This document shows positions 37,052 through 40,408 of a stretch of 41,996 nt of DNA, in pieces. A model generated the notes under the pieces. The model ran no database searches, was not told the DNA's origin, and worked only from the letters and a program-made list of their open reading frames with translations. Positions within the stretch are counted from its first letter, which is position 1. Each line of letters starts with the position of its first letter. The stretch spans positions 1-41,996 of the forward strand of contig CAJXQX010000029.1 in assembly GCA_913058185.1 (NCBI GenBank). Reading direction: 5' to 3'. The position numbers were made by a program, and so were the translations under genes. Origin of the DNA: an uncultured Verrucomicrobiota bacterium. GTDB taxonomy: Bacteria > Verrucomicrobiota > Verrucomicrobiia > Opitutales > Opitutaceae.

Positions 37052-38143
37052 GTGCCTGAATCGGATTCATTCAAAGAGTGGTTCAACGCGGATCGCTACC
37101 ATTCGATTGCAAACGCTTTGGCCAAGGCTTGCCGGACGTTTGATAAAAAAATGTTTCTCCAGATGACCCTGAATGGTCTGAAGAAACGTGAGCTCATGAC
37201 GCGATTGCGGCAGACCTCAATCGCCGCAGCGGCGAGCGTGCCGGGAGACTATCCGCAGCAACTCAAAGTGATTCGTAAAATCGCCGGCCCCGAAGCCAAC
37301 GGGATGATCGGAGATTGGTATTCTGATTTCGTCGGCCAGTTTGGAGTGAATTATCCAGAATTGTCCCTGCCGGCATTAAGCTATTTTACCCAATTCGGCT
37401 CCGCAGAATTCGCGATCCGGGAGTTTTTGATTCGATCCCCCAAGCAAACTCTCAAAGTAATGCTGCAATGGTCGAAGGACGATGATGAACACGTGCGCCG
37501 CCTGGCCAGCGAAGGTTCCCGCCCCCGATTACCTTGGGGCAAGCGATTGGGTCTCCTAGTGATCGATCCCAAGCCAACCCGCCGAATCCTGGAGAATCTT
37601 CGCAACGACGAGTCGCTCTACGTGCGCAAGTCTGTAGCCAATCACTTGAACGACATTGCGAAAGACCATCCCGACTATGTCATGGATCTCGTTGAGAGCT
37701 GGGACCAGGGGCAGCCCCATGTCTCGTGGATTACGCGGCATGGGTTGCGCACGTTGATAAAGAAAGCGCACCCCCGAACCTTGAAGTTTCTCGGAGTGGG
37801 TGACCCTCCAAAACTTGCCCAACTCGACTTCGCTGTTTCACCCGGGCGAATCAAATTGGGCGAACGGATTGAACTTCGTCTATCAATAACCTCGGCGAGT
37901 CGAACCCCGCAAACCCTACTCATCGATTACGTGATTCATTACGTGAAAGCCAATGGCTCCACGAGTGCCAAGGTCTTCAAGTGGAAACAAATCATGCTAG
38001 CCGCCGGCAGCTCCCTTTCGTTGCTTAAAAGACAAACAATTAGGGGTTTCAGCACGCGAAAGCACTACCCCGGTCTCCATCCGGTCGAAATTCAAATCAA
38101 TGGCCGCAGATTGACCGCTGACGCATTTCAGCTTCGTCTCTAA
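37052..38143 (+). CDS. AlkC/AlkD-like DNA alkylation repair protein
   Basis: A 363-residue protein made of HEAT-like alpha repeats, like the AlkC branch of the AlkD superfamily of DNA glycosylases, which remove 3-methylpurines. The AlkC-like stretch HVRRLASEGSRPRLPWGKRL is conserved, and RNDESLYVRKSVANHLNDIA is the usual neighbouring motif. A beta-rich C-terminal region follows after about residue 260 (FAVSPGRIKLGERIELRLS, VIHYVKANG), a known extra domain in some AlkC proteins. The start is GTG 37052, with no ATG ahead of the first helix. It lies 54 bases behind alaS and is probably co-transcribed with it. Confidence 0.83.
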   Translation: MPESDSFKEWFNADRYHSIANALAKACRTFDKKMFLQMTLNGLKKRELMTRLRQTSIAAAASVPGDYPQQLKVIRKIAGPEANGMIGDWYSDFVGQFGVNYPELSLPALSYFTQFGSAEFAIREFLIRSPKQTLKVMLQWSKDDDEHVRRLASEGSRPRLPWGKRLGLLVIDPKPTRRILENLRNDESLYVRKSVANHLNDIAKDHPDYVMDLVESWDQGQPHVSWITRHGLRTLIKKAHPRTLKFLGVGDPPKLAQLDFAVSPGRIKLGERIELRLSITSASRTPQTLLIDYVIHYVKANGSTSAKVFKWKQIMLAAGSSLSLLKRQTIRGFSTRKHYPGLHPVEIQINGRRLTADAFQLRL

Positions 38144-38209: not shown

Positions 38210-38662
38210 ATGATCTCATACGCCACTCCCAACTTGGCTGCCCACCCACCCCGCAGTCCTCGGATGCGATTGGGTGGATTTGTGCACCTCCCCCGCCTTT
38301 TGGATAAAACGCGTGCCTCGATTGTGAAACAATTGGGGGACTACTCTTTCCCGTGCGCCCTTGATCAACGTGTTTTGAGTTTCATGGGCATTGAAGCCGA
38401 GGAGTTTATCTCGGCGGTGCGCAGCGGAAAGTCTGACTCCGAAATGCTGGAATGGATCTTGGGTCGTCTCACTCCGGCACGACGCCCCCACGAGATCGTA
38501 GCATGGTCCGATTGGTTAGAAAACGTCGCTCCCGGAGATGCGCAACGACACGAGAATTTTGCGAATGAAATTCGTCGATTGGCCCCAGCTCGCAATGACA
38601 TCGTCACGACCTTTGATCGATTGGAATTGGATGACTATGTGTCATTCGGCGGGCGCGGGTAA
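38210..38662 (+). CDS. DUF5069 domain protein
   Basis: A 150-residue protein of the DUF5069 family. Its opening HPPRSPRMRLGGFVHLPRLL then DKTRA is characteristic, and the C-terminal half is helical with a charged end (LELDDYVSFGGRG). Function is unknown; the family is common in Verrucomicrobiota and related groups. It lies 66 bases behind the AlkC-like gene and 18 bases before ispH, so it is likely part of the same transcript. No catalytic residues can be named. Confidence 0.82.
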   Translation: MISYATPNLAAHPPRSPRMRLGGFVHLPRLLDKTRASIVKQLGDYSFPCALDQRVLSFMGIEAEEFISAVRSGKSDSEMLEWILGRLTPARRPHEIVAWSDWLENVAPGDAQRHENFANEIRRLAPARNDIVTTFDRLELDDYVSFGGRG

Positions 38663-38680: not shown

Positions 38681-40408
38681 ATGAATTCAGGGCCAACTCA
38701 AACCGTCATTCTGGCGTTCAACCGTAATAATCAATTGGCTGTGCGCCGATTGGGTTCGCAAGCTGGCCTCGCTTTCTTGGGAGCCGATTCTGCGATGGCA
38801 TTAAGTCGACTCGAAGAATCATTTCCCGGATCTCCGGAACCACGGCCACTAATGGAAACAAAATGTGCTGCCGGAAATTTCACCGTATCCGCTGTTCAAG
38901 TATCATCCGAAACCCGGGATCGGGAAATTCGCTTTGAATCGATTGAGAGTCTCGACAGCGCGACATTCCGCTCTTCGCCCGTGCTGACGGCCATTACGTC
39001 GGATTTAGAACAACATCTGGTCCGGATTCCGTATCTTCACTTAGGCGAAAACGATTTCATCTATAAGTTCCGACCAGGGAAGGAGCGAAACCCCGCGATC
39101 TATGCGAATGATCACGTTTCGAGCGCACTTTACCAATCCAAGCTTTGTGCCGCAATTAAAGCGCTCGCTCGCCAACACGAACGCACCGCCACCGCTCCAG
39201 TTTCTCTGAATTTTGGTGCAATTGAGTATATTATACCCAGTCACTTCGGGTTTTGTCTCGGGGTAAAGAACGCGATCGAACGCGCCTATGAAACGCTAGC
39301 GGCCAATCCGGATCGACGGGTATTCATGCTCTCGGAGCTCATTCACAATCCCTTCGTGAACGAAGATCTTTGGCGGCGTGGATTACGTTATTTGCAATCA
39401 GATAAAGGCGTCCCCCACACGACCCAGGGGGCTGCCGGCACAGGAGATCCCACCGAAGAACTCATTTGGGACACCCTCACACCCGCAGATATCGTAATCA
39501 TACCGGCCTTTGGTGCCACCAACGAAGACAAAGCTCGTTTGGTGCGCAAGGGCCTCGAGGTCTACGCCCACGATGCCACTTGCATGCTCGTCGAGAAAGT
39601 CTGGAAAGCTGCCCGGAGTTACGGCCGGGAAGGTTATACCGTGATAATCCACGGCAAGGCTGAGCATGAAGAAACCAAGGCCACGTATTCAAACACGCGT
39701 CGTTATGCTCCAGCGGTGATCGTGAGGAATCTCGAGGAAGGGAAAAAGCTGGCCGCGATCATCACGAGCCAAAATCCCGTCGAGCGGCAGCGTTTTTATA
39801 CTGAATTCGAGGGTAAACACACACCAGGTTTTGATGTGGATCGCGATTTGCAGCGCGTGGCGGTGGTCAACCAAACCACGCTGCTCATGAATGAGACCCT
39901 ATCCATAACCGAGAGTCTGCGCGCGGCGTTCACAGCGCGCTACGGTTCGGAAGATATTTCCCGAGTCGGCGGAGGTGGTCGACGAGACACCCTTTGTTAC
40001 GCCACTCAAGTCAATCAAGATGCGCTCGGCCGCGCCCTCACCGAACCTCTTGATGCGGCCTTCGTCATCGGAGGAAAGAACTCCTCCAACACGTATCAGC
40101 TCTACCGACTTTGCGCTGAAAAATTAGATGAAAAAGCGTTCTTCGTGCAGAGTGAACAAAACATCCTCTCCCGAGATTTGAGCGAGCATTTCGTATTTCC
40201 AGCTCAGGACCCTGGGAAAGGCGGCGAGGTCATTGAACGGCCACTCTGGCCTCGTGATAAATCCATCAAGCGCGTGCTGCTCACCGGAGGTGCCTCATGT
40301 CCCGACGGCCTTATTCAGGCTTTGATTACCCGCCTGAACAGCTTGGAGCCAGAAACCGAATTACGCAGTATCGATGAAGTCCTCGGCGATCTTGAAGCAA
40401 CCGATTGA
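38681..40408 (+). CDS. ispH: HMB-PP reductase IspH, long form with N-terminal extension
   Basis: IspH is the last enzyme of the non-mevalonate isoprenoid pathway, a [4Fe-4S] protein that reduces HMBPP to IPP and DMAPP. The core begins at FGFCLGVKNAIERAYET with Cys192 and carries DATCMLVEKVW (Cys301) and TLCYATQVNQDALGRAL (Cys439), the three cluster cysteines. HGKAEHEET, GGKNSSNTYQLYRL and TGGASCPDG (Cys540) match the longer plant/cyanobacterial form. The product is 575 residues because of about 185 residues ahead of the core, with no recognised domain (for example RNNQLAVRRLGSQAGLAF). No start codon close to the core is obvious. It closes the alaS run. Confidence 0.9.
   Translation: MNSGPTQTVILAFNRNNQLAVRRLGSQAGLAFLGADSAMALSRLEESFPGSPEPRPLMETKCAAGNFTVSAVQVSSETRDREIRFESIESLDSATFRSSPVLTAITSDLEQHLVRIPYLHLGENDFIYKFRPGKERNPAIYANDHVSSALYQSKLCAAIKALARQHERTATAPVSLNFGAIEYIIPSHFGFCLGVKNAIERAYETLAANPDRRVFMLSELIHNPFVNEDLWRRGLRYLQSDKGVPHTTQGAAGTGDPTEELIWDTLTPADIVIIPAFGATNEDKARLVRKGLEVYAHDATCMLVEKVWKAARSYGREGYTVIIHGKAEHEETKATYSNTRRYAPAVIVRNLEEGKKLAAIITSQNPVERQRFYTEFEGKHTPGFDVDRDLQRVAVVNQTTLLMNETLSITESLRAAFTARYGSEDISRVGGGGRRDTLCYATQVNQDALGRALTEPLDAAFVIGGKNSSNTYQLYRLCAEKLDEKAFFVQSEQNILSRDLSEHFVFPAQDPGKGGEVIERPLWPRDKSIKRVLLTGGASCPDGLIQALITRLNSLEPETELRSIDEVLGDLEATD

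Follow-up and report, generated by a model that had tools for sequence, protein, structure and literature searches.

Gene Organization and Translation Start

The window, that is, the whole stretch of 41,996 nucleotides that was analysed, carries near its end an ispH gene with an unusually built N-terminal region. The features considered here are the following:

38210..38662, + strand: DUF5069 gene, ending 18 bases 5' of the ispH start
38681..40408, + strand: ispH (HMBPP reductase) gene, 575 aa plus stop, with a 187-residue N-terminal extension
38681..39025, + strand: residues 1-115, putative pseudo-Nudix domain, assigned from AlphaFold2 models, VIA-align, Foldseek, and hhalign with controls; no Nudix box
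38789..38821, + strand: residues 37-47, predicted helix that takes the position of the Nudix helix and lacks the catalytic Glu residues of the Nudix box
39026..39091, + strand: residues 116-137, conserved linker with the motif IPYLxLGENDFIYKFRxxxxRN; lowest model confidence
39092..39241, + strand: residues 138-187, NCD-like segment with Y151 and C156
39242..40405, + strand: residues 188-575, catalytic core of IspH with motif cysteines 192, 301, and 439

The ispH frame opens with ATG, and the window's genome assembly has no IspH match besides the encoded protein. Membership of the IspH family was found with both PF02401 (205.5 bits, cut-off 24.5) and TIGR00216 (194.6 bits, cut-off 187.85), and the predicted full-length model matches the E. 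coli IspH fold with a Z of 26. C192, C301, C439, H222, H329, NQTT at T399, SSNT at S468, S539, and DATC were found, which we take to be the three cluster cysteines and the active-site motifs of the enzyme. The Pfam LYTB model covers just residues 187-552, and NF009911, the model of plant and cyanobacterial long IspHs, covers residues 149-558 with 341.7 bits, short of its cut-off of 440 bits.

Co-transcription of the DUF5069 gene with ispH is likely. The same order of the two genes recurs in relatives such as G001, G002, G005, G006, G007, and G014, not in G003, and five places in the window's own genome match the DUF5069 protein. Further 5', at 37052-38143, lies a protein with a match of DNA alkylation repair type (PF08713, E 2e-7), on the other side of which is a gene that presumably encodes alanyl-tRNA synthetase.

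An alternative to be considered first is a misannotated start or a frame artefact, with the true protein beginning near residue 150-190. No clear Shine-Dalgarno stretch could be read by eye before the ATG, which would suit such a late start. However, within the first 230 codons in-frame ATG, GTG, or TTG occurs at codons 1, 19, 21, 24, 33, 39, 58, 101, 216, and 226 and nowhere between 101 and 216, so that initiation near residue 150-190 is impossible. An in-frame stop lies six codons 5' of the ATG. Conservation in the window's family sets in at about residue 10 (LAF...N.LAVR), just past the ATG, and together with the dN/dS given below it rules out a chance reading frame and makes a late start scarcely credible. 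Nor is the extension absent from relatives within the family: residues 1-176 were matched in 35 of 57 genomes, the window's own included. Within the family, neither of the two conditions that would have refuted the sequence-only reading came true, and the 187-residue extension is real, is read from the first ATG of the frame, and is kept in relatives.

Anatomy and Conservation of the Extension

The extension is not one block, being composed of a pseudo-Nudix domain, a linker, and a segment resembling the N-terminal conserved domain (NCD) of long IspHs. The sequence-only reading had described a single N-terminal region of 185 residues without a known domain. Its length was nearly right, as 187 residues precede the core; the part peculiar to the lineage is only about residues 1-115. 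In plain long IspHs of the class (n = 30), 39-130 residues separate the first Met of the frame from FGFC, 71 at most in 28 of the 30, which leaves a lineage-specific part of about 115 residues rather than 185. The absence of a known domain was an error at the level of the fold, since residues 1-115 have a predicted Nudix fold and residues 138-187 correspond to the NCD segment. The regulatory or redox-partner-binding role suggested in that reading is one possible function among several.

Conservation was analysed with relatives from a scan of one genome per species, which gave 203 relatives; the best 80 of the 203, titled Opitutaceae or its genera, Opitutia/Opitutae, or Verrucomicrobi(i)a, were used. 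Among these 80 loci, L115 lacked the core, five ran off a contig end, and L088 was truncated. Alignment A2 combines the window with 62 of the 80, a further ten usable loci being omitted by choice; two of its rows (L081, L118) have no ATG and begin at the first codon of the frame. Alignment A3 combines the window with 66 of the 80. Selection was estimated from 63 proteins with pairs whose core dS was under 1.3. For residues 8-112, the mean pairwise identity was 0.577 and the median dN/dS 0.25 (746 pairs). The corresponding values were 0.772 and 0.125 (762 pairs) for residues 113-187, and 0.768 and 0.157 (776 pairs) for core residues 188-556. Judged by these codon substitutions, the extension is under purifying selection, and the pseudo-Nudix domain evolves faster than the core (identity 0.577 versus 0.768). 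All 67 near copies in the alignment share R22. When far copies were added (23 rows), F13 was the sole invariant residue before P117.

Residues 113-187 are strongly conserved and end in the segment that corresponds to the NCD of long IspHs. Its motif Y.S.LC (Y151, C156) was present in all 136 distinct extensions, a count that is biased for C156 because loci L061-L140 were fetched with a peptide pattern containing LY[QH]SxLC; among loci fetched without this pattern, C156 was found in 74 of 74. Y151 (Y.S.L) aligns with the Y[RQ]S of the plain long forms of the class, which have this motif in 30 of 30, and we take it to be the equivalent of the Tyr of the plant NCD. A conserved Tyr segment stands directly before the core, as in an NCD. 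The plain long forms carry the NCD Tyr in 30 of 30 and a Cys equivalent to C156 in none of 30. The C156 codon is located at window positions 39146-39148. The linker PYLxLGENDFIYKFR is the most conserved part of the extension yet the one modelled with least confidence, with pLDDT below 50 at residues 126-129, as if it would fold only with a partner.

Predicted Fold of Residues 1-115

With 63 aligned full-length proteins, AlphaFold2 gave a model with a mean pLDDT of 86.6, and of 88-96 in each ten-residue block of residues 11-110. The domain modelled in isolation from 67 rows had a mean pLDDT of 85.2 (79-94 per block) and the same strands and helices: strands 6-13, 19-24, and 27-30, helix 37-47, strands 55-62, 65-73, and 83-86, and helices 88-92 and 100-114. 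These predicted models were the input for VIA-align and Foldseek, and some matches whose titles omit "Nudix" were taken to be Nudix proteins.

For the isolated domain, the 50 VIA-align matches listed had Z values of 10.4-12.0 and were Nudix hydrolases, MutY/MUTYH, NrtR/AraR, Dcp2, and similar proteins; the exception by title was 3rh7, a "putative oxidoreductase", aligned through its residues 167-290. For the full-length model, the first eight rows were IspH (Z 22.4-26.3), and the other 42 matches listed were of Nudix type, spanning from residue 1-4 to residue 111-125. They include IDI, namely 3hyq (Z 11.2) and 1hzt (Z 10.8), both at 16% identity. Foldseek returned 76 matches with E <= 0.001, of which the 50 listed were all of Nudix type; DR0079 (2o5f) had the top query TM-score among those listed, 0.69 at 2.8 A. 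Residues 1-115 are thus predicted to adopt the alpha/beta/alpha fold of Nudix proteins.

Profile Comparison with Nudix Proteins

Family models did not recognize the window's copy. Residues 1-183 searched alone against Pfam and NCBIfam gave no family up to E = 1, as the sequence-only reading had anticipated for the front region, and the window's copy of the domain matched no Nudix model. Among six copies from other families searched with Pfam, one matched NUDIX, one AMP_N (E 0.28), and four nothing. For L186, NUDIX was the only Pfam family, at E 0.054 and under the curated cut-off. Three such copies gave no NCBIfam family. Copies from family f117 keep Nudix-like wording, VWDLPYAGAG in L187 and LGLPDVSGVRGEPSAEAL in L186. 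Pfam searches with 23 and 67 copies yielded scattered single-member matches (best E 0.021 and 0.008), which were taken as chance. A weak PDB match of profile A1 to OR280 (E 0.0067) was likewise set down to chance because profile A3 found nothing among PDB sequences.

Profiles were also compared with hhalign, whose E-values refer to a single comparison. The query comprised 133 distinct extensions of 100-125 residues, drawn from loci up to L200 and matching the linker pattern, copies with odd linkers being left out. The Nudix sequences were taken from the window's genome and its relatives and selected by motif patterns, which admitted 30 rows out of 36 loci, 22 of 25, and 27 of 30 (14 of 19 for DUF5069). 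Against 30 Nudix sequences (29 distinct), the extensions reached 85.1% and a score of 39.0 over 105 columns spanning the whole domain. The controls stayed far lower: 18.7 at most in 100 column shuffles, 8.7 and 10.8 with reversed profiles, 16.2 (9 columns) with the unrelated DUF5069, and 12.3 with the IspH core. Against pooled Nudix rows, the scores were 31.4 (53.1%) and 28.3 (31.7%). A second query, made up of 26 extensions from outside the window's family (f1) and six remote f1 copies (32 far extensions in all), scored 33.0 against all Nudix rows, compared with 12.6 at most in 60 shuffles. Independently of the structural models, these values show a relation of the extension to Nudix proteins at the profile level.

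As to the subgroup, 28 rows of IDI/YfcD type, names assigned here from motifs, gave 86.9% and a score of 40.0 with the 133 extensions, and 94.9% and 49.6 with the 32 far extensions. The 24 YfcD-like rows alone gave 64.2% and 33.3, and the three IDI-1-like rows alone, which are nearly alike (Neff 1.4), 1.9% and 18.3. Against two other Nudix subfamilies, the 133 extensions scored just 15.0 and 12.7 and the far copies 15.5 and 16.6, with probabilities of 0.2-1.2% for both alignments. Both wide profiles therefore fail outside one subgroup, from which the sequence support comes. The four Nudix sets compared among themselves scored 179 for one pair, 50-63 for three, and 23-25 for two; since some of these sets also score low against each other, a failed comparison of this kind is not strong evidence. 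An affinity of the domain to the IDI/YfcD group is suggested by these profiles, and its identity as a degenerate Nudix-fold domain is judged very probable.

Absence of the Catalytic Site

The predicted Nudix fold raises the alternative that the extension is an active Nudix hydrolase with a divergent active site. However, the Nudix box GX5EX7REUXEEXGU and the RExxEE motif were each found in none of the 133 copies, and ExxEE in one of the 133; the strict Nudix box and RExxEE were also found in none of the 32 far copies. Because the box is missing from all 133 copies, Nudix hydrolysis by the extension appears very unlikely, and a hidden active site is most improbable. In several f11 copies only 94-98 residues precede the PYL motif, and the helix region is shrunk. 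The CGHP-type active-site motif of type 1 isopentenyl diphosphate isomerase (IDI-1) was not seen in the translation of residues 1-119. The window's genome has a separate IDI-1-like gene (CCGHP) and a YfcD-like gene; as the former is encoded apart from ispH, the idea that the domain replaces a missing IDI was rejected.

Distribution and Phylogeny

In the window's family, the whole protein was matched in 48 of 57 genomes (the window's own included), many by the core alone. Two well covered genomes of this family, G010 and G027, have no long fused IspH and just weak matches of the short kind, and a replacement of the long fused form may have taken place there. G018, G021, and G034 are also without the extension, their genomes being 67-84% complete. 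In G012 (L056, G012:C1:7102308-7104106), two reading frames share the ispH match, the break near query residue 250 in the core being either a sequencing slip or a real frame change.

Across the window's order, taken to be Opitutales, the long-IspH model was matched in 196 of 223 genomes, strongly (E <= 1e-60) in 54, and its cut-off of 440 bits was passed in none of the 223. The strong matches belong to families f1 (21), f11 (22), f117 (8), f3 (2), and f12 (1), and to no others. They have open frames of 536-1070 aa in 53 of 54 genomes (366 aa in the remaining one) and are single in 51 of 54, with two adjacent pieces in G156 and G373 and three in G488. In the remaining 142 genomes the match is weak, with E no better than 7e-28, and among the matches listed the open frames measure 287-419 aa. 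With the extension profile itself, matches were obtained in 23 of 188 genomes at the level of the class and in 30 of 288 at that of the phylum, all f1 or f11. In the phylum, the long model was matched at E <= 1e-60 in 118 of 387 genomes, comprising 44 Opitutales, 63 genomes of the same class outside the order (including L317-L346), and 11 of other classes; its cut-off was passed by 56 genomes of the phylum, none of them Opitutales. Long IspHs of NCD type are thus common in the class, whose members concerned here we take to be non-photosynthetic. The pseudo-Nudix domain was not found in the other sampled IspH lineages of the phylum, and among the sampled genomes the fused architecture occurs only in some Opitutales families.

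A quick tree of 62 cores placed the 32 chosen Opitutales proteins, none of them from f3, on one side of a branch and 30 plain long forms on the other (SH-aLRT 100). This branch is very long, so the two groups appear to lie deeply apart. The Opitutales fused form could have had one origin on the evidence of this tree.

Possible Roles of the Domain

It is reasonably probable that the protein as a whole is a working long-type IspH, fused N-terminally to a degenerate, non-hydrolytic Nudix-fold domain of IDI/YfcD type with a docking or stabilizing role. A Nudix-fold domain would have been joined once to an NCD-type IspH, would then have lost its catalytic box, and would have been retained as a docking or stabilizing module that acts on the NCD segment and the core by way of the conserved linker. 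Such a module could provide a dimer contact, keep the NCD segment in place over the iron-sulphur core, or offer a binding surface to an electron donor or pathway partner. Non-catalytic Nudix-fold domains act in this way in MutY and in NrtR-type regulators. Docking or stabilization stands at about an even chance of being the main role of the domain.

Two further explanations need to be weighed against docking or stabilization. The domain may be a relic on its way out, the linker and the NCD-like segment being what matters while residues 1-115 are tolerated. Its faster evolution and the shrunken f11 copies fit slow decay without function as well. Yet the median dN/dS of 0.25 indicates purifying selection, positions are conserved within the window's family, and open frames of at least 536 aa are kept in 53 of the 54 strong long-form matches of Opitutales, for which reasons a mere relic is considered unlikely. 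Alternatively, the pseudo-Nudix domain could be a ligand sensor, binding a diphosphate (IPP, DMAPP, HMBPP, or a nucleotide) and tuning IspH allosterically. The nearest profile group, Nudix proteins of IDI/YfcD type, speaks for it, given that IDI interconverts the two products of IspH; so do NrtR/AraR among the structural neighbours, in which the Nudix fold is used for ligand sensing, and the invariance of R22 in the near copies. Against this, R22 is not kept once the far copies are added, several f11 copies have lost the region of the Nudix helix, the fast evolution gives no hint of a preserved pocket, and the genome has its separate IDI-1-like gene. A sensor role is accordingly judged improbable. 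More doubtful again is its particular form in which the decayed IDI-type domain would be a built-in product sensor, with IPP or DMAPP as ligand and feedback on the final MEP enzyme; to our knowledge, product-sensor control of this kind is not known for IspH. Docking or stabilization is retained as the preferred reading.

Comparison with Known Systems

IspH, an iron-sulphur enzyme and drug target, catalyses the final step of the MEP pathway. Bacteria whose long IspH carries a dead Nudix-fold domain provide a natural setting for testing how N-terminal additions affect the stability, electron delivery, assembly, or feedback of IspH, and a formerly unexplained region now has a predicted fold and a boundary.

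With the NCD-bearing long IspHs of plants and cyanobacteria (NF009911, PRK13371), the window protein shares the core, with PAFGA in it, and the Y.S segment before FGFC; plain long forms of this kind occur within the window's class too. It differs from them in the linker motif, an insert between the NCD helix and the core, a conserved Cys, and the putative pseudo-Nudix domain, and in its score of 342 bits against the NF009911 cut-off of 440. An NCD in a class presumed to be non-photosynthetic sits uneasily with a role in oxygen protection tied to photosynthesis. Oxygen protection, or a requirement for activity, is what portions of PMC12605070 and PMC4746011 propose for the NCD, on which background is also given in portions of PMC12605070 and PMC9044040.

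IspH is found in multidomain proteins elsewhere, too. The survey of fusions in PMC4746011, as far as its main text goes, lists RPS1, UbiA, CMP kinase, helicase, fructose bisphosphatase, UDP/PNP phosphorylase, and the NCD form; the partners in IspH-RPS1, IspH-UbiA, and the other fusions differ from Nudix, a word with no occurrence in that main text. A search of titles and abstracts, mostly outside subscription journals, found no description of a pseudo-Nudix-IspH fusion. Long IspH and IspH fusions as such are already known, and this IspH domain architecture is one that was found nowhere described.

The resemblance to the IDI/YfcD type of the Nudix superfamily lies in the predicted fold and the profile similarity, whereas the window domain has no Nudix box and is fused to IspH. 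MutY/MUTYH, among the top structural matches (Z about 12), likewise carries a Nudix-fold domain in a non-catalytic role on an iron-sulphur enzyme; there, in contrast, the domain is C-terminal and concerned with DNA containing 8-oxoG.
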